From NCBI GenBank assembly GCA_027923505.1, contig BROI01000009.1:682001-746000 (forward strand): DNA of 64,000 nt. Direction: 5' to 3'. The stretch comes from Mayamaea pseudoterrestris (taxonomy: Eukaryota > Bacillariophyta > Bacillariophyceae > Sellaphorales > Sellaphoraceae). Position 1 is the first letter of the stretch; the number at the start of each line of letters is the position of its first letter. Made by a program: the position numbers and the translations under genes. Below the pieces are notes generated by a model that had not been told where the DNA came from, ran no database searches, and saw nothing but the letters and a program-made list of their open reading frames with translations. Shown in pieces: positions 4,356-63,450 of this stretch.

Positions 4356-5727
4356 TTACAAGTGAAAAGCGTTAGCAAACTCCAGGTTTGACAACGTGTC
4401 TCGCACTGCCCTGTGCTGATCTCCAAGGACTGACTGTTGAATGAGCAGAGCTTCCTCCAATAATGACAGCGCATTTTCGTAATCCTTGAGCGCAAGCATG
4501 AGATACCCACAGTTGCAAATGACGATTGCAACGTGCAACAAATCCAAATCAGCTTGAGCCGACGATCCAATCGCCATTTGCTGTAACTCATCTGCTTCTT
4601 GCAAGAGCGAGAGAGCTTTATCATGATTGCCAAGCTCGAAATGACAGCAAGCCATATAGTTCAAAACCATGGCTTGCTGAGGCCGACGCGACATATCGTG
4701 AAGCCGGTTGCGAACCGCAAGGGCCTCTTTAAAACATGCAATGGCGCCTTCAAAGTCACTCTTGGCAAAGAGCTGAATGCCTAATTCATCACACGAGAGT
4801 GCCACCTCGGGATTATTCTCCCCAAACGCCACCGTCTTCAAGTGAATAGCCTTTCGAAAGTAGGTAATGGCATCGTCAGGTCGTCCAGCAAGGATACTGA
4901 CAACACCAAGATTGTGAGCCGTGATGCCTGCCAAATATTTATTGTTTCCTCGATTTGGTCGTGCCATTTGTACCCCTAGGTCACCAGCAAACTTCTCTAA
5001 AAGTACCTTGTAGCGCTTGTTCTAAAAGTAATGGACTCGTTAGTGCTTTATATGAGTCCCATACGTAATCACATTGCAAACGCACCTTTGTATGTTCTAC
5101 AATCTCAGCTAATGTAACACTAAGATTGTTGGGATGCCGCATATTCCACACGTCGAGGGGAACAGTCTCGGCAACCTTGATCTGGCCAATCTCCATGAAT
5201 CGATTCTCAGCCATTATGGGCGGTATATCGATCAAATACCCAACCGAAATCATTCTCTCCGTGCGCGTCGTGAGTTGTTCAAGCGTGTCGTAAACTCGTT
5301 CATGAGGCGTCAGCTCATCGACGAGAGCACCAAGTCCGATGAACCGAAGACCATGAAGCTCAACGAATTGCAATGACGTCGCCATGACTTGATCCTTTGG
5401 TTCGGCGTTGGGAAAACTTGTGCAAACAATTCCGCAATTACCAAGAAGAGCTGTAACAAGGTCAATGCGTTTAGAGGATGGCTGATTTGGCCCGACTCCA
5501 TAAACTTTTGTTGTTGCAACAGAACCTTTTTGAATCGTCGGCGGAAGGGTTCCGCAAGCAACTAGGCGCCGCAAGGGACTTTCGGTCTCCTTATATTCGC
5601 CAGATTCTGCACTGACGTTCATCGTTTTCTTGCTAGCGAGGCAATTTGCCGACGGACAATAATGGAAGAAGAAAGATCGGACTGGTATGCGTGTTGTGGT
5701 ATGTGGTCGCAGCAACTGGAATTGCAA
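4356..5727 (-). CDS. Tetratricopeptide-repeat protein
   Basis: Two frames join as exons 5727-5086 and 5021-4356 through a 64-base intron (AAAG/GTGCGT donor, TTTTAG acceptor, phase 0), giving about 435 residues. The C-terminal half has at least four tandem TPR units, each with the W/L-G-Y/A-F-A spacing, for example ITAHNLGVVSILAGRPDDAI and VLNYMACCHFELGNHDKALS. The N-terminal half (about residues 40-210) has no domain I recognise. TPR arrays bind other proteins. The first 35 residues are hydrophobic, Arg-containing and lack acidic residues, so a mitochondrial leader is possible. The Met at 5622 is an alternative start if the leader is not real. Confidence 0.75.
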
Positions 5728-52281: not shown

Positions 52282-54147
52282 GTGCCGCATGGCACAAGAT
52301 CTTCGACGAACGCACTCACCATGGCGAAACCACTCCAACCACACACAATGCCTGTCTCCTACGGCTCTGGCAAGCGACTTTTGGTTGGTTATTCACGTCT
52401 TTGTCACTTACTCTTATTCAGTCGACCCCTAACGATACAAGCGGCAGCTTTTGGAATTCACAGTAGCGGCAGCAGCTCAATTACAACCACATCCAAACAC
52501 ATTGCTTTTGCAAGCCACGCAACAGTTCACAGCGGCATTACTGCAAGTACAGCACTCTTTAGCACCATGACTTCGGATCGTCATCCAGTCACCGCATCTC
52601 CCATCTTGACGTTTGGATCAAATGTCGAGAAACTTGGAGACGAGGAGTACGCAGCAACAGTTCTCATGGGAAAGAAGGACATGCTCGACAAGCATGCCGC
52701 TGCCTTGCTACGTGAAACACTCGGTCTCGCAATGGACGACAATTTACTAGAGCGCATGCTCAATGACATTGACGCCAAGTCGGGAGGTTCTTCCAGTACC
52801 CTTCTTGCTGCGAGTGCAGGAGGTCCGACGATGATGCATCGATTGACGATTTGTGGACTTCCTCATCACGATTCACGCAACCTCAGTCCAAGTTCGTTTC
52901 ATGCCATTCCAGCACTCGTCAAGAGCCAGGTCATGACGCTGAGTAAGCAATCCAACTGCACCCGCTAGCTTATTTTCACGAACGATGTAAGCGACAGCAT
53001 TGGCCCATATGCTGCGGCGGTCAGCAAGGCGGTTCCTCTCTTTTCGCTCAAAACTACGTCGTCGCCACCGAGCAATCTACGCAACATTGGCGTCTCATTC
53101 GTTGACGCGCAAGGCTCACTGGTGACTGATGAAACGCAACTACAAGCGGCGCAAGTTGTTTCGGAAAGTGTTCAGCTTGCCGCCCGCTTGGTGGATATGC
53201 ACCCCGAGCAATTAACCACGACGCAGTTTGTCAAGGAGGTGCAAACTCTTCTCGACGACAAGCTTGAACATGTGAAAATGACGGAAATCACGGGCGACGA
53301 CTTGATTCAATATGGAGGCTTGCACGCTGTTGGTCGCGCCGCGGAACATCCGCCTCGGCTTGTCATACTCGAATACGACGGTCGCTCCAAAAGTAACGAC
53401 AAGGGCCAAAGCAGCGAACATTCGACAGTGGCATTGGTTGGCAAGGGCATTGTATACGATACTGGTGGCTTGGCGCTCAAGAGTAAGGACGGAATGAGCG
53501 GAATGAAGGGTGACATGGGTGGTGCTGCTGCCTTGCTGGGTGGATTTTACGCTGCATGTCGTTTGAAGGTTCAGAGAAAGATTGTTCTAATCCTTTGCTT
53601 GGCGGAAAATGCCATTGGACCGACGGCTTTCCGCAATGATGACATTTTAATCATGTACTCGGGCAAGTCTGTCGAAGTTAATAATCCAGATGCGGAGGGT
53701 CGTTTGGTATTGGCAGATGGGGTGGCGCATGCGACCAAACACATTGAGGATCTGGGCTTGGTGGTCGACATGGCAACTCTTACTGGCGCGCAGCTTGTTG
53801 CGACGGGCAAGACACATGCCGGTATTCTCACAAACTCCAAAGAAGTGGAAGAGCAGGCTGTCCTGGCTGGTTTGAAATCGGGAGACTATGTATTTCCCAT
53901 GGTTTACTGCCCGGAGCTTTTGATGGACGAGTTCAAGTCCGAAGTAGCAGACATGAAGAACAGCGTCAAGGATAGGGGTAATGCGCAATCCTCCTGTGCG
54001 GGACATTTTGTTGAGAGTCACTTGAATAAAGGATATACTGGCGATTGGTTGCACGTTGACATTGCTGGGCCTGCTTGGCGCGATGGCCGAGGCACGGCAT
54101 TCGGTACAGGCTTCGTGCTCAGCATCTTGGGAGTTGACGGTTGGTAA
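52282..54147 (+). CDS. M17 leucyl aminopeptidase, with an internal in-frame TAG
   Basis: The same reading frame runs from 52282 to the stop at 54147 with one TAG at 52966-52968. Upstream is a Ser/His-rich leader and an N-terminal domain (SPILTFGSNVEKLGDEEYAA). Downstream is a complete M17 catalytic domain: GKGIVYDTGGLALKSKDGMS, MKGDMGGAAA, NPDAEGRLVLADGVAHATKH with the metal ligands, and MATLTGAQLVATGKTHAGIL. M17 enzymes remove N-terminal residues using two metal ions. The TAG could lie in a 39-base intron (52930-52968, CAG/GTCATG donor and GCTAG acceptor, phase 0), which is shorter than any other intron in the window. Otherwise it is a true nonsense codon. The region between the two parts reads as coding. 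Confidence 0.8.
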
Positions 54148-54194: not shown

Positions 54195-57100
54195 TTATGT
54201 TGTTTTGCTTTTCAACTGCTCCACCATCTCGGCAACAATCTCTTCGCCCTTCAGCTCAAATTCCCGACGATTCTGTAAAGCGTAGTTGAGGTACTCATCA
54301 CTAAATACGCCAAACACACCACAGTCTTTCAGTTTCTTTGCAAGGGGAATGATATAGAAGTCAAAGAAACCCATTTCGCCCCGAAACCATCCGGGTGCGG
54401 GATCCGACTGAGAGCGCCCCTCTTTCCAAGCTCGCCAGCATTCCTCAAACAGTCTCGCATTCCATTTGCGGTAAATATGCCAATGCTGCATCGTATGAGC
54501 CACATCTGAGGTCTGAATCAAATGCTCGATGACAATGGTGGCCTTGCGGGCTGTCAGTTCCTCGCAGGTGGCGCTCGATTTTTCTTGGGCAAATGCCTTT
54601 TTCCATCGCTCCTTGCGTTTTGCCGCCAACTCCTTGTCCATTATGTCCGTTGATAATACCGATTGAACTAACATCTGTCGGAAACGCTTGAACTCATCCT
54701 CTGTTTGATAGATGGTCCGACGGAGGTCCTCAAAGCAATCTTGCATGAGAAGATCCCAGGCAATCTCGAAGGAATTCTGTTCGGCAATGCTTTTCTGCTT
54801 GTACACGACGGCAATACTAGCATCTTCGTTCACTAGCTGCGAATTTGGAACTCCTGTATGGTCAACGTCATGAATGAGTGCGGCCAAAATCACTGCAAAT
54901 TGGGTCAGCGGACTAGAGTTTATACCAAAGGTGTGGTCATGCAAAACTTTGTGAGCGGCATCTTGGCTCTCAGGCTCTATATCAGGGGCAACAATGCGGG
55001 ACAAAAGCTTCACAACACTCATGGTGACATGTGAAGCGTGCTCAAAGTTATGAAAGGGGTTGTCGCGATACAGAGCGGCAATTGTTAAAGTATACTCCTG
55101 CAGTTGCAAGGAAATTTTGCTCCCGAGATCTACGTCAGCGGCGCATTTTTGTCGCTTGGCCACATCAGCGTCGAAGGCTGGAATATCCACTATGTCTTTG
55201 ATTTCATCTATTGGAATGCTATCACTGTCAATGTTGGCTAGCTCCAGCGCTCGCATCGTTGACGCGCTATCAGGTCGGACACCTCGGGCTTCGCGACGGA
55301 CAACTTGTTCACGCAAGACTCTTGACAAAATTTCCACGTTCCATGATACCAGACGCATGTTCTTTTCAGATAGCGGTTGGGCCTTCTCCTCAATGCTGTG
55401 TTTCAAGTCGCCTTTGAGCTGAGCAAGATCAACGACAGCTTGAGGAGCAAGGTCGACGACAGCCTGAGGCTCGTCCTCGTCCTCTTCATAGTCTGCGTTC
55501 GATGCCGACGGGTCACTGCCTCCCCCACCAGATGACATGGAGTGCGCTTTCTCACCCTTGATCTCAAGCCAAAATGTTTGCACTTCGCCCTTTCCAGTTG
55601 CAGTAATCTTATTTTCACGGGGACGCGTCCAATGACCCTTACCCGCATGCTGGAGCAACTCCGCCGTCTCAGGAGACAGATGGATCATATTTTTGGCACC
55701 GGTATTTTCAATTCTAGCGGTAATGTTGACTGCATCACCAAAGAGCTGTCGGAAAAGCGAGCGATAAGGTGAGCATATTCTCGTCTACTTTTATCCCGAA
55801 TTACAAGTTTTCCGCTTACCTGGAATCGAGCACGTTCGCCACGCAAAACTCCAGCCGTCACGGGCCCCGAGTGCAGCCCAACCCTGAGACCGAGATCGTT
55901 CGTATCCGGACCTAAAGAAACCTCCAAGGACTTGGTCACTTGACCTAGTTTGTACAAGCAATCGCGAGCAAAACGACTCTATGAAGGGAGTTAGGTAATG
56001 ACTGGATGAGCGGCAATTGTACCAATCGAACACCGAATGGGTACACTGCAACGGATGTACTTACCATGACGATAGCGTGATCATGCCGCGGCTCAGGGAG
56101 ACCGCACACAGCAACTGGAAAAAGAGGACTTAAGTTAGAGCGTACCCCGACTATTGGGCAATGGACATGCACATGAACTACATGGAACGCACCATAGCAG
56201 TCTCCAATCGTCTCGACCTTGAAAACACGACGGCGCATGGCAACCTGATCAAATTCATAGTATATGGTCTCCAATAAGTTAAATACCTGAGCAGGTTCCC
56301 TCATACTACTCCATGCAGTAAAGCCAACCAAGTCTGCATACATGATTGTCACTTGAGGGAACAAATCGGCAATCGGCTTCGTTTTAAAAATTGAATTTCC
56401 AGTGCTATTCTTGGCTTCGTCGTCGACGTGAAGGAACTGCTTGATCTGCGTTTTTGGGGCAAAAGCAAAGGAGCGCTTTGCTTGCTCATCCCGTTGGTAG
56501 TCGGCGTCTGCATTGTGCAAGATGCGATCATGCATTTCTTTTGGAAAGAGGCTCGTAACAATAGCTTTTGTTCGCTCGGCCGTGAATTGCAGCTTGGCTT
56601 GGCGACGGTAGATCATCAGGTCGTACGCCATGAAAAACATGAGCGTTAAAAAGAAAACCATTACCACAAGGACACAGTAAATAGTCGGCTTATTGGTGTA
56701 AAACGTTTCTTCGAACATGACAGTAGGGTACACTGTCATTTTGTAGTCGCAGTGCCCTTTCTGGGAGGTTCTGTTGACGCCATCGTATTGCGCCTGCTGA
56801 GCAAACTGATAGACAAACTTTGAGCCTTCGTATCGCTTGTCATGGTAGGAACCTGCGCCTAGATAGGTGGCCGTTGGGCCGTTAAGAAGAAACGAGAAGC
56901 TATCTCCACACGTTCCTCGAATGTCGACTAAAATGCCTTCCACCTCCGGCGGCAGAATGTTAAGGAAGAACTCACGCCATTGCACATTAGCAAACAAGAA
57001 AGCCACTGTCTCTGAGCCCGGGTAAAAGTCGTCGTAGATTGGATTAATGACTGATCGTTCATAAATTGAGTGTGTTAGTTGAGTCAAGGTGAAGGAAATG

Positions 57101-58247
57101 GGCCTTCGCTGAGTTCGAGCACTTACGGAAAGAGGACGGACTGTTATCCGCTGCCTCAACGTGGTCAGTAAAATGTGTTAGCATACGCAGGTCGGCCACA
57201 CCCGATAGCATCATATGATTAACCTCCAACGCATTGTCAATGGCTGACTTGAACTCGGGATGAGTGTAGACGTCAAAATTCACAATGGTGGCGTTGGTTG
57301 GAACGGGCCCAGTCTCCCAAATTGGTACGTGAAAGGGCTCATCAATGATTGGTGACGACGGACCCAAATTCAAGTCGTGCATGCTGCTTTCCCCATTGGC
57401 AGCCTGCTGCCAGGATGGGTCGCTCGCCAAAATCTGATTCATCGTCTCGTACGGATAAATTTGCGGCGTGATGTTACCTGGGTTCTTAGCAAAGGCTGCC
57501 TCGCCTTTGTGAAAACTCCAATCGTTGTAAACCCAAGATTGCTGCTCGTATGCATATTGCTCCCACTCGGCAAGCTTGCTTTGTTTGACGATGGGCGCCA
57601 AAAAGATGAGGCTTGCCCCTGAGAGTTCCCTGGCGTCGCCTGACCGACGATCAAATCTGGCAATAGTTACAGCTGGGAACGCTCCATTCGCTAGAGAATG
57701 CGATGTCAAAGTTACACCAAGAAGATGTACCTGGCCAAATAGATTGGCAGTAGTGGCTTCGACGTTAGCGTACGCTGCTTCGGCGTATTGAGTGAACTGC
57801 GGAATTCAAAGAGGATGAAGAACGTACGCGTGGTGAGTGGTGAGGTGGCGGATAATCGCGAAGGGATCGAAGGCAGCCCAAGCTTGACTTAAAAGAGACA
57901 CTTACCACAACTTGAAACTCGTACTGCTCTTGCTTCTTGGTAAAAATATACGTCAACGTGCCGACCGTGACTGCAGCCGCCAGGAGGGAGAGGTACACCA
58001 ACGCCTTCGATCGTTTGACGTTTCTTGTACGCTGCTTGGACTCGATGCACTCATCCGTCGAAACATCTCCCGTCGCTAAAGCTTTCCCAGCCGAACTGGA
58101 CCGCTCACTGGAACCCGAGTTACTGCCCGAACTGGAATTTTCCTTGCGTGAATCCATGTCGTCATCGTCAGATTCGTTTGTGATGCGCATTTTTTGTTCA
58201 TCCTTTGCTCCTCCGGCGGTCGCCACCGGTAGTTCCTTCGGTGCCAT
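54195..58247 (-). CDS. Receptor-type nucleotide cyclase-phosphodiesterase fusion, copy A
   Basis: Six exons (58247-57906, 57796-57127, 57050-56193, 56114-56065, 55978-55820, 55745-54195) keep the frame and give 1,209 residues. In order: an acidic Ser-rich cytosolic head, TM1 (about 86-106), an outer CHASE-like sensor (about 115-455), TM2 (about 460-482), a class III cyclase (about 565-720) and a class I PDE (about 860-1165). The cyclase keeps both metal Asp (MYADLVGFTAW and ETIGDCY) and the transition-state Asn/Arg (VNITAR). Substrate positions are Glu (KVETIG) and Gln (ARFQLFG), so it is guanylate-like but not decisive. The PDE has the full HD-x2-H-x4-N signature (HDVDHTGVPN) and HNFEHASHV. 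It could make and destroy a cyclic nucleotide in one chain. The linker holds a tandem QAVVDLAP repeat. Confidence 0.9.
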
Positions 58248-59057
58248 TTCAAACTTGTTGCTAGCTTGTTGCCTCTACTTTTTAAAGGCAAAGCACTTGG
58301 CACTTGGCGGATGTTAACAGCAGTCTGATCTCTACAAATGTGTTGCTGAAAGGATCGAGTTGTTCGATTGACGTTCGAGCAAACGAACTACGAAGGATAC
58401 GCACGACTGCGCATGCATCAGGCAATTCCAGTGACAAGTCATTGGTCACATTGATATTCACAAAGCTAATGGAGGCTATTGAATAGGTCTTGGAATGGGT
58501 CATTGTTGAGTAAAGTGGCTATAGGTCGCGCATCTGACGCATCTGTGAACCGACTTTTCAAAGCGGTGTTCAAGTAAAATGTCAACCAGTAAAGCGATAA
58601 TTGGCCTCGTGACATACGTATGAAGGCCCTACCGAAGAGGCCTCGGTAAATTTAGCTACTGGCATGCTGCATGCCAAAAGTTCATGAAGTACTGTAGCAA
58701 GAAATCCAATGCATGGGTTACTATAGCGCATTAACTTAGGTTAGAGCTCAAGTACAAATTGAAAGATGATAAGGATGCTGTGCGGAGGGGCGACGGTTGT
58801 GACGTGATCTATAACATTGGAATGTCAATGTGCAGCCGCCAGTACAAGTCACTCCACAACATTGGATTAACTTGGGGAGTGTAGTAAGGTTTTATGTCAA
58901 CACAAACATTGCAAAGCAGATAGTAGACGAGGCCCGTAGAGGCGCAGAACCACCGGTCATTTATGAGTCATTGGAGTAGGCTGCACGAACGCCAAGAAGT
59001 ACGGCATGTCGCACCAAGTTACACCCATTAATGTCGTGAAGCATGTCCGGATATATC
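58248..59057. other. Spacer between the tandem cyclase-PDE genes
   Basis: About 810 bases hold the promoter of copy A and the 3' flank of copy B. There is a palindromic TGGCATGCTGCATGCCA near 58657-58673. No leftover of either gene and no RNA gene were recognised. Confidence 0.45.
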
Positions 59058-62000
59058 CTACCACAAATACTTCGCCTTCATCTGCTCCACCATCTCAGAA
59101 ATGATTCCTTGCCCTTTTATCTCCCATTCTCGACGGTTATGCAGCGCGTAATTTAGATATTCATCGCTGGACACACCGAACACACCACAGTCTTTCAATT
59201 TTTTGGCAAGAGGAATGATGTAGAAGTCAAAAAAGCCAATTTCGCCTTGATACCATCCGTGTGTGGGATCCGTCTGCGAGCGCCCATCCTTCCATGCTTT
59301 GAACTGCTCCTCAAACAGTCTCGCATTCCACTTTCGGTAGATGTGCCAATGCTGCATTGTGTGAGCAACGTCGGATGCCTGAATTAAATGCTCAATCACA
59401 ATCGTAGCCTTGCGGTCGTTCCTCTCACTGACGCTCAGACCGTTCTGGCCATCGAACGCAAAATTCCACCTCTCCTTCCGCTTGGCCGAAAGATCCTTGT
59501 CCATAATGTCGGTGCTCAACACCACATTCACCAAGAGTTGTCTAAAACGTTTGAACTCTTCGGTAGTGGTGTATATGACGCGTCGAAGGTCTTTAAAACA
59601 ATCCTGCATGAGAACCTCCCAAGCAATATCCAAGGAATTCTGCTCGGCAATGCTCTTTTGGTTGTAGTAGGATGCAATGCTGGTTTGCTCAACAATAAGC
59701 TGCGAATTCGGAATGCCTGTATGGTCGACATCATGAATTAATGCAGCCATGACAACTCCAAGCTGCGTAAGTGGGTCTGAAGTTATGCCAAAAGTGTGGT
59801 CATGCAAATTTTTGTGAGCAGCATCTTGGCTCTCTGACTCAATCTCAGGAGCAATGATCCGAGATAGAAGCTTGACGACACTCATTGTCACGTGGGATGC
59901 ATGCTCAAAGTTGTGGAAGGGATTGCTCCGATAGAGCGCTGCCATCGTTTGAATAAACTCGGTCAGCTGTTGGTGAACAGTATCGTCCAATTCAATGTCG
60001 GTTGCACTCTTCTGTCGCTTCGCTGCGGCGGCGTCAAATTTTGGCAATTGGAGTGTATCCTGGACTTCATCAATTGCAATCGTGTCGCAGTCAAGTTTCT
60101 CCATCTCCAAGGCTTGCATTCGCTCAACACTCTCTGCCTTTATTCCTAAAGCTTGTCGTCGAGCGACTTGCTCGCGCAGGATGCGATAAAGAATTTCAAT
60201 ATTCCAACTGACAAGGCGCATGTTTCTCTCGGACAGAGGATTTATCTTTTGACCGACGTTTTCCTTCATTGCCTCATTAAGCTTGGTCAAGTTTGGAATG
60301 ACCTGGACGTCCCGCTCATCCTCATCGTCGTCCGCGTTAGAATGAGTGTCATCGCTGCCGCTGGCACCTGATGTCTGAGATTTGGCGTTGCTACCCTTGA
60401 TATCAAGCCAAAAGGTTTGAACTTCGCTTGCACTGTTAATCACTATTTTGTCTTCGCGCAGGCGCGCCCAGTGGCCCTTTCCTGCACCTTGAAGAACCTC
60501 TGCCGTCTCAGGCGAGAGATGAATGCGATTCTTAACGCCGGTCGTTTCAATACGTGCCGTTCCATTTACAGTATCCCCAAAAAGCTGCATCGACAAAAAC
60601 CATAGATTAGCAAAGATTACAATCCCTGTCGTCGGTACTCAAATTAGTTTCGTGTACCTTACCTGAAAGCGAGCACGCTCACCTCGAAGTACTCCGGCTG
60701 TCACTGGACCACTGTGCAATCCAATTCTGAGACCAAGCTCCGCTGTATCAGGTCCTAAAGAAAGCTCTAATGACTTGGTAACTGTATCGATCTTATAAAG
60801 GCAATCGCGAGCGAAGCGGCACTGTAAAGAACACAACCATTGTGAGCGCAAGTCGTCCCTTAAGGAATAACAAGACGACAGTTTACATACCATGACTGTT
60901 GCATGATCCTTTCGGGGTTCCGGAAGGCCACAGACGGCAACGTAACAATCGCCAATTGTTTCAACTTTAAATACGCGGCGACGCTTTGCGATCTGATCAA
61001 ACTCATTGTATAACGTTTCTAATAAAATGAACACTTGCGCGGGCTCTCGCATGCTGCTCCAAGCGGTAAATCCTGTGAAAGAAATGAGACGACGTACGTT
61101 AGTTTCAATAACTGCCACGGGTTGACGCAAGTCGGGGAAACCAACATGATAATTGGACCACGGTCGAAACTTACCAACCAAATCTGCAAACATTACGGTT
61201 ACCGCAGGGAAAAGGTCAGCAATGGGCTTGGTCTTGAAGATGGCGTCACCTGACATATCCTGGCCAGCATCTTCCGCCAAGAATTCTCTCAACTGTGACT
61301 TGGGAGCAAAGCCGAACGTTCTCTTAGCTGCTTCCTCCTTATGAGCCTGGGCTTCAGCTTCGGCCATGATGCGATCATGAACTTCCTTGGGAAACAAACT
61401 GGAAACGATCGCCTTGGTCCGAGCAGCGGTGAAGACAAGCTTGGCTTGGCGGCGGTATACCATGTAATCATAAGCCGCAAATAGCAGTAGAGTAAACACA
61501 AATACCATCACGACGAGTATACAGTAGACCGCCGGCTTGTTAGTGTAATAGCTTTGCGCAAACTCGGCTGTCGGATAGAATGCAATAGTGTAGTCGCACG
61601 CTCCGAGATCGGTCATTTTGTTAGGTCCATCGTACCGAGCGTCTTCGGCAAAGTCGTAATCAAGTTTCATGCCTTCATACTTCTCCTCGTGGTAGTGACC
61701 AGTGCCAAGGTACGTCGTCTCGTTTCCGTTCATGAGGTAGGAAAAGCGATCGCCGCAAGAACCTTCCACTTCAACCAACACTCCATTGACGCCTGGAGGC
61801 AAGATGTTGACGAAAAAAGAATGCCATTCGATTTTGGCGATGATAAAAGCCACCGTTTTTGCGTCCGGGTGAAAATCCTCATAGATTGGATGAAGCACTG
61901 ATACCATGCGAGTAGACAGTGAGTGAGCGGAAGTGGCAGCAGCAAATGAGTCGGAAGCATGCAGGTACCACAATGCATCGACTTACAAAATGATTCTGGC

Positions 62001-63142
62001 TCCGTATATATCAATTCTCCATGCGTCATGAAGTAGGTAACGATAGGAAGCGCCCATACTCTCGAAAAGAGCATACGATTGATCTCCAGCGCTTGGTCCA
62101 CGACGGGTTTAAAGGCAGGTTTTGTGTAAAGATCAAAGTTGCAGACGGATGCGTTTCGCGGAACAGGACCGGCTTCCCAGATTGGCAAATAAAACGGCTC
62201 GTCAATCACAGGGGAAGGCGGTCCAAGATCCTCCGACAAGGAAAGATCCTGATTAATGCTGTCCCATTCCGCCGATTTGACAGTCTTTTCCCAGAGTGGA
62301 TCTTGATCGAGAATTTTGATCGCATCGTGGAATCCGTATATGTTGCGCGAAATATTACCCGGATTCTGTTCGTAGCCTGACTCACCCTCGTGAAAGAGCC
62401 AGTCAGTGTAAACCCATTCTTGATTTTCATACGCGTATTGCTCCCAGCCCTTTCGTTGACTTTCCTTGACAATCGGCGCGTAGTAAATGAGACCTGATCC
62501 GGAAAGTTTTCGGGCCTCATCCGCGCGTCGATCGAACCTTGAAATGGTCACGTTGGGAAAGGCGCCGTTGGCGAGCGAATGCGATGTGAGCGTGACACTG
62601 AGCAGTTTGATTTGACCAAAAATATTCTTGGTGGTCGCGTCAATAGTTTGATGCGCAGCGTCGGCGTATTCGGCAAACTAAAGGATTAAGTGTAGCATGC
62701 GAGTGAGAAAGGAGCGAGATGATGTTGCCGATGACATCTGGTGCCATCATTTTACCCCGAGAAAGCTCCTCCAAGGCTCACGTACCTCAAGAGTGAAGCT
62801 GTCGTCCTCGGATCTTTTCGTAAAAAAGTAAGTCAAAGTGCCAACCGTCGTGGCCGCAAAGATAAGCGAAAGATAAACCAGGAACTTGGTTCGATTCACA
62901 TTCTTGGTATCTTGCTTGGTCACTGCACATATCTCTGTCGCTCGTTCTTCGCCACCAGTTCTGGATCCAAAGTCCGTCGTGGAGGGGTTGCTTGAAGAAT
63001 GTCCGGCCGAGCTCGAGTTTTCGTTGCTCGATTTGCCGTCCTCTATGTCTTCATAGATGGAATCGTCAACCATATGGCTTTTGAGAACCTCATCTTGAAG
63101 AGCCCTGGCTGCGTCCGACTTTTTGGGTGCGAGGATGTTCAT
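59058..63142 (-). CDS. Receptor-type nucleotide cyclase-phosphodiesterase fusion, copy B
   Basis: Six exons (63142-62786, 62677-61987, 61897-61175, 61072-60891, 60821-60663, 60584-59058) give 1,212 residues from MNILAPKKSDAARALQDEVL. The frame is open further upstream but loses protein character. Architecture matches copy A: TM1, CHASE-like outer domain (FAEYADAAHQTIDATTKNIF), TM2 (YCILVVMVFVFTLLLFAAYD), class III cyclase (FADLVGFTAW, ETIGDCY, VNGTAR, with Glu and Gln at the substrate positions) and PDE (HDVDHTGIPN, HNFEHASHV). The catalytic set is complete. The intron at D-L-V-G/F-T-A-W is absent from copy A, and the copy A intron at G-D-C-Y is absent here. Cyclic GMP or AMP signalling at a membrane is inferred. 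Confidence 0.9.
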
Positions 63143-63450
63143 GGTCTCCTGTCGTTGCCGCTCCTGCTGTTGACGACAAACTGATGGGACGGGGGCCGCG
63201 GAACAATTGATTGTCGCTTGCTTCCACCACAGGGATATGTAGACATAACGCAACTCCAACCTGCGAATGTGCGGCGTTATTTCGCAGTCATCCGGAGTTA
63301 TAGAATGGGTCGTGTCAATTGGGGCTATAATCTTCAAAATGACCGGCATTGGCGCGCAACTGAAAAGGTCGGCGATATGTCGCAGCGAAACTCAATGCCG
63401 ACAGCCCGATTTCCGCCATCCACAAATCTCCAAGCACCATGGCACTGTCA
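63143..63450. other. Divergent promoter region (cyclase copy B and right-edge gene)
   Basis: Short region between two outward-transcribed genes. The minus-strand frame is open across part of it but is not protein-like. No feature was seen. Confidence 0.4.

Follow-up and report, generated by a model that had tools for sequence, protein, structure and literature searches.

A tandem pair of putative receptor-type guanylate cyclase/phosphodiesterase genes in the diatom Mayamaea pseudoterrestris

The window, the whole stretch of 64,000 nucleotides of contig BROI01000009.1 of the freshwater diatom Mayamaea pseudoterrestris that was analysed, carries two neighbouring genes, A and B, each coding for a membrane protein with a class III nucleotide cyclase and a class I phosphodiesterase (PDE) on one chain. 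Judged by their sequences, A and B are new members of the known pennate-diatom family of receptor-type guanylate cyclase/phosphodiesterases (GC/PDEs). We consider it probable that they are tandem receptors that would both make and hydrolyse cGMP and so give a self-limiting local signal. In A and B alike, the chain runs from an acidic, serine-rich tail through a membrane span, an outer domain of about 355 residues and a second span to the cyclase and, finally, the PDE. This is the GC/PDE family layout of an inner N-terminal tail, two spans around an outer domain, and the two enzymes.

Gene models

Both genes lie on the minus strand, as do all features of A and B given below, with B followed by A head to tail. 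Two adjacent genes of about 1,210 residues had been proposed in an earlier, sequence-only reading of this DNA, and the comparison of spliced translations with NCBI proteins bore this out. Gene A (MPSEU_000535300; 54195..58247) encodes 1209 aa in exons 58247-57906, 57796-57127, 57050-56193, 56114-56065, 55978-55820 and 55745-54195 (stop included), and its spliced translation is identical, letter for letter and over the full length, to the NCBI protein (P0002). Gene B (59058..63142) encodes 1212 aa in exons 63142-62786, 62677-61987, 61897-61175, 61072-60891, 60821-60663 and 60584-59058 (stop included). Its spliced translation lies wholly inside the product of MPSEU_000535400 (P0001), whose NCBI model starts 69 residues further upstream; these extra N-terminal residues, ahead of the Met used here, correspond to 63143-63349. 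The six exons of each gene are separated by GT..AG introns of 69-109 bases. A false fusion was rejected on the sequence evidence: the frames join at the GT..AG introns, the NCBI models agree, and predicted proteins of other diatoms share the fusion.

The cyclase domain

PF00211 (Guanylate_cyc) matched residues 568-754 of A (55563..56361, three introns; E 1.9e-44) and 579-764 of B (60405..61211, three introns; E 3.8e-44). The class III cyclase had been called complete, and we agree, as the metal-binding Asp pair and the transition-state Asn and Arg are in place in both proteins. Each of Asp588, Asp632, Asn711 and Arg715 of B, with its counterpart in A, is conserved in at least 119 of the 120 listed homologues, which are the best 120 of 1701 matches and include A and B. 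A second search, seeded with a distant paralogue, gave the best 120 of 1608 matches, of which 117 were new; this set includes short predicted proteins.

Canonical guanylate cyclases (GCs) carry Glu and Cys at the two substrate-determining positions, and adenylate cyclases (ACs) carry Lys and Asp. The corresponding residues are Glu617 (56212..56214) and Gln693 (55820..55822) in A, and Glu628 (60960..60962) and Gln704 (60663..60665) in B. Alignment with AC8 sets the Glu on the AC Lys and the Gln on the AC Asp, so the Glu/Gln pair had been read correctly. The pair is real, but it is a fixed family trait, and we rejected it as a peculiarity of A and B: all 120 listed homologues and all 27 fusion genes of this genome, with exons joined, share it. 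For two of the latter (L019 and L025), the raw alignment crosses an intron and misreads the Gln position, and the exon ends give Gln. Among the 117 further proteins, the first position was Glu in 58 and a gap in 59, whereas the second was Gln in 102, another residue in three and a gap in 12.

Two positions ahead of the Gln, all 120 listed homologues have Arg, as do the two canonical GCs of this genome. These two cyclases, which lack a PDE (L032 and L033), read Glu/Arg/Cys at the three positions, and a third PDE-less cyclase (L031) reads Gln/Leu/Asp; three loci that match the cyclase only weakly (L036-L038) could not be aligned at E<=0.01. Set against the GC substrate signature, the Glu and the neighbouring Arg match and the Cys appears as Gln throughout the listed homologues. 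On chemical grounds, the Glu would accept hydrogen bonds from guanine N1 and N2, and the Arg and Gln would donate to O6, an arrangement that favours GTP. Moreover, the nearest cyclase structures in the fold search were mostly GCs, and in phmmer GC-A scored 123.7 bits in one stretch, compared with 78.8 for the better single stretch of the top-ranking two-domain ACs. Because the Arg is conserved as in canonical GCs and the nearest structures are mostly GCs, cGMP is the favoured, if unproven, product, and the earlier caution that the product could not be predicted is lifted in part.

The PDE domain

PF00233 (PDEase_I) matched residues 871-1209 of A (54198..55214; E 4.1e-32) and 871-1212 of B (59061..60086; E 4.2e-29). 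The HD-x2-H-x4-N motif, the upstream H-N-x2-H and the second metal-binding Asp are present in both proteins. The sequence-only reading was right about the motif and the metal ligands of a complete class I PDE, but it overlooked the purine-binding residue, which in human PDEs generally is known as the 'invariant glutamine'. This residue is Glu1150 (54375..54377) in A and Glu1152 (59241..59243) in B. It is also Glu in 120 of 120 listed homologues, in 114 of the 117 proteins of the second set (with one Asp, in the paralogue L010's own protein, one Val and one gap) and in 25 of the 27 paralogues of this genome. Stand-alone PDEs differ: the best 120 of 252 matches to one PDE of this genome showed Gln in 111, seven gaps, two other residues and no Glu, and the three stand-alone PDEs of the genome all have Gln. 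In four alignments with PDB sequences, the Glu faced Gln in two PDE1B and Glu in two Salpingoeca Rh-PDE sequences. Since Rh-PDE is active with Glu, the glutamine is common in class I PDEs rather than defining for them.

As reported for PDE9 (PMC3069055), the engineered Q453E variant has a KM for cGMP of 2.8 µM instead of 0.113 µM. Its kcat/KM is lower by a factor of about 50 with cGMP and of 5 with cAMP, and cGMP is still preferred 29-fold. The natural Glu is therefore more safely read as a setting of affinity than as a specificity switch. By analogy, the fixed Glu probably gives the fusion PDEs a purine affinity unlike that of stand-alone PDEs, and a lower affinity for cGMP would be expected. 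We found no mention of the Gln-to-Glu change in the main-text passages of the diatom cyclase/PDE literature, supplements (including the alignment figure of Moeys 2016) apart.

The outer domain and its CHASE fold

Hydropathy supports the two membrane spans that had been assigned to each protein. In A they cover residues 82-102 (57942..58004) and 457-485 (56608..56694), and in B residues 87-106 (62825..62884) and 468-497 (61455..61544). The sensor between them comprises residues 103-456 of A (56695..57941, two introns inside) and 107-467 of B (61545..62824, two introns), the latter 56% identical to the modelled sensor of A. This domain is predicted to be extracellular.

The outer domain had been described as CHASE-like. 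The Pfam match is weak, with E 0.0062 (16.8 bits) for A and 0.065 (13.4 bits) for B against a cut-off of 25 bits, and comparison of folds now supports the assignment. For that comparison the sensor was modelled on its own, since a search with the full-length model returned cyclases and PDEs and was uninformative on the sensor. The predicted structure, flanked by the two spans, has the CHASE layout of a long N-terminal helix and a pair of PAS-like subdomains. When a profile built from 12 sensor sequences was searched against the PDB, the single match was a flagellin-related chain (E 0.039), apparently a chance hit, and no alignment with AHK4 was obtained. In a model of the paralogue P0005, the predicted order is likewise tail, span, outer domain, span, cyclase and PDE, and a long helix leads toward the cyclase (427-474, then 477-495).

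The sensor and the linkers vary while the enzyme domains stay constant. Mean pairwise identity was 0.30 for the sensor, 0.70 for the cyclase and 0.62 for the PDE in 600 random pairs from 102 homologues (the 120 listed minus A, B and rows with a short sensor). Two sensor cysteines, 385 and 438 in A numbering, are each present in 118 of 120 listed homologues, and the pair fits a putative disulphide outside the cell.

Paralogues and tandem arrangement

In the 30.6 Mb assembly of 41 contigs, where counts are lower bounds for large families, 33 PDE matches came from 27 fusion genes, two of them split over two matches each, and from three stand-alone PDEs on C6, which account for four matches. The fusion genes cluster on C20, C11, C9 and elsewhere. 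The tandem arrangement, singled out by the sequence-only reading, proved ordinary, with at least 27 fusions in the genome and eight of them within ~110 kb of one contig (G000:C20:471553-582322). The A/B pair is one of several such groups, and the idea that its arrangement is special was rejected.

In a PDE-domain tree of 53 rows, in which the C29:325 gene is present twice (also as P0005), A, B and this gene form one group (support 100/99). Within it A is nearer to C29:325 (98/79) and B joins next, so A and B are not strict sisters. C20:556 and C20:581 are almost identical in the same tree, which suggests a recent copy. Some listed homologues of Epithemia (two pairs), Seminavis and Cylindrotheca likewise pair up on contigs of equal length, which suggests that these may be neighbours as well. 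Tandem duplication looks like the usual mode of growth of the GC/PDE family.

A and B are 63% identical (757/1197 aligned residues), and their non-synonymous divergence (dN) is highest in the CHASE part at 0.35, against 0.19 in the PDE and 0.14 in the cyclase. The synonymous divergence (dS) was undefined, with 244 of 328 four-fold sites differing, and no date was obtained for the A/B duplication.

Two paralogues depart from the common pattern. L021 (G000:C2:543000-549500; PDE at locus positions 4663-5637) has lost PDE catalytic residues (general-acid His to Asn, His to Arg, His to Arg, Asp to Glu) and retained the cyclase Glu/Gln; by its sequence, it is apparently a natural PDE-dead member. 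L010 (G000:C29:197500-204000; P0241) has a short stretch between its hydrophobic spans and Asp at the PDE position, and apparently does without the CHASE sensor.

Next to the pair, a plus-strand reading frame (52969-54147) stops 47 bases away from where gene A ends at its 3' side; by its motifs it looks like an M17 leucyl aminopeptidase.

Proposed mechanism and alternatives

Sequence, splice signals, domains, predicted folds and conservation are the direct basis of this work; to these we add, as what we infer, cGMP as both product and substrate, the homodimer, the order of events, the direction of regulation and the low affinity. The CHASE domain between the two spans would sense a small ligand outside the cell, a sex pheromone being the published idea for a Seminavis member. 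Binding may shift the second span together with the long helix that leads into the cyclase, and the cyclase, acting as a homodimer, would produce cGMP. This would then be hydrolysed by the class I PDE of the same chain, keeping the signal local and self-limiting, and a PDE of low affinity would act mainly at high cGMP.

Several observations weigh against this cGMP-based mechanism. The cyclase Gln replaces the Cys of known GCs, and in the second homologue set 3 of 105 letters at this position differ. Two-domain ACs head the phmmer list, with a total of 137.4 bits from two stretches, the better of which scores 78.8. The PDE position is Asp in L010 and Gln in L021, and the second PDE metal Asp is Asn in 4 of the 117 proteins of the second set. 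The counts from best matches over-represent near relatives, and no measured activity of a diatom GC/PDE was found in the literature passages. Furthermore, the PDE9 study concluded that the invariant glutamine matters for binding but is unlikely to decide between cGMP and cAMP (PMC3069055), and the Glu alone is therefore no proof of cGMP specificity.

Some of these points would suit a cyclase that makes cAMP, or both nucleotides, paired with a cAMP or dual PDE. A Gln where GCs have Cys might serve as a hydrogen-bond acceptor for the amino group of adenine, and phmmer ranks ACs among the close matches as well. Rh-PDE, with Glu at the PDE position too, acts on both cGMP and cAMP (PMC7644710). We nevertheless regard this as unlikely: a Glu at the first position would not suit adenine N1, the Arg before the Gln is invariant in the listed homologues, the AC-type L031 reads Gln/Leu/Asp and the two canonical GCs Glu/Arg/Cys, and the nearest structures are mostly GCs. 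A largely inactive or regulatory PDE half, its substrate binding severely impaired by the Glu and its main role that of a cGMP sensor or of a clamp for the dimer, would be in line with the ~50-fold loss of kcat/KM for cGMP in PDE9 Q453E (PMC3069055). The loss of metal ligands in L021 likewise implies that the PDE half can be dispensable. This explanation is somewhat less probable again. At every metal-ligand position and at the general-acid His, at least 119 of the 120 listed homologues have the expected residue, as do 26 of the 27 paralogues (L029 read as two pieces). The PDE domains average 62% identity among the 102 homologues, and Rh-PDE is enzymatically active with this very Glu.

In the fusions examined, the cyclase Gln and the PDE Glu are invariant or almost invariant; the aligned stand-alone relatives lack them. 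Two off-textbook purine contacts with this distribution could mean that both sites changed jointly to handle some other purine cyclic nucleotide as the messenger. We find this highly improbable, given that two of the three cyclase positions are GC-type, that no sequence feature points to another base, and that cGMP and cAMP are the substrates of Rh-PDE, which also has this Glu. Keeping cGMP as the preferred messenger, it is conceivable, although we put this forward only tentatively, that the linked purine sites co-evolved in the fusion, with the PDE tuned to low cGMP affinity and setting a cGMP ceiling. If so, the PDE half would form a natural class of exceptions to the 'invariant glutamine' rule, and the protein a pulse generator on one chain, its own PDE setting the ceiling of a signal read out from a CHASE pheromone sensor. 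As far as the main-text passages go, this double signature has gone unremarked in print.

The GC/PDE family is a candidate for sex-pheromone sensing in diatoms, with receptor and ligand roles still putative, and the CHASE fold offers a concrete ligand-binding pocket. The unusual residues at both enzyme sites are testable. The Glu-bearing PDE lineage is a natural experiment on PDE binding and on the contested question of cGMP/cAMP discrimination (PMC3069055), for which the stand-alone Gln PDEs of the same genome are ready controls.

Comparison with known systems

Cyclase-PDE fusions had been said to occur in diatoms, and their topology is indeed described by Moeys 2016 (PMC4726125) and in PMC8027222. 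The listed Seminavis homologues show 40-46% identity over 93-100% of the chain (P0037, 46% over 97% of B). The Seminavis robusta GC/PDE resembles A and B in its short inner N-terminus, two spans, outer stretch, cyclase and PDE. Its expression rises after the pheromone SIP+, and the authors proposed that the pheromone is sensed by the outer domain or by an activator; they also found the guanine-binding residues conserved, all but two (PMC4726125). Eight GC/PDE genes of this topology were among the responders in PMC8027222, all upregulated. A Pseudo-nitzschia GC/PDE was regulated 1.9-fold (PMC5485032), and a study that aligned its cyclases for GC motifs found a response to bacterial exudates in seven GCs, of which two have a PDE domain (PMC6688387). 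The passages of PMC4726125 and PMC8027222 on the Seminavis proteins name neither a CHASE domain nor the PDE Gln-to-Glu change. The word 'CHASE' is absent from the main text of PMC4726125, and we found no mention of a CHASE fold of diatom GC/PDEs in the literature passages, supplements apart.

Some homologues call for a remark of their own. P0003 (2110 aa) and P0004 (1901 aa) of Nitzschia sp. Nitz4 each have two cyclase and two PDE motif sets, and are either merged tandem neighbours or real double-length receptors. P0024, from the transcriptome MMETSP0472, carries an organism name starting with 'Tiarin', which is not diatom-like, and possibly stems from diatom prey or contamination.

The CHASE sensors of AHK4 and PcrK share a predicted fold with the diatom sensor. 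They were not found by the diatom sequence profile, and the likeness is one of fold. Both proteins have a histidine kinase output, unlike the diatom cyclase/PDE. Marchantia CAPE combines an adenylyl cyclase and a PDE on one chain, in a cAMP system with another domain order. Dictyostelium ACG/AcgA, which is not known to have a PDE on its chain, comes close in the sensor half. There, a CHASE domain between two spans feeds a class III cyclase, as in A and B (PMC7316887, PMC1863423), but the enzyme is an adenylate cyclase. The PDE half finds its counterpart in Salpingoeca rosetta Rh-PDE (5vyd, 7d7p), a class I PDE with Glu at the invariant-Gln position that differs in having a rhodopsin sensor and no cyclase.

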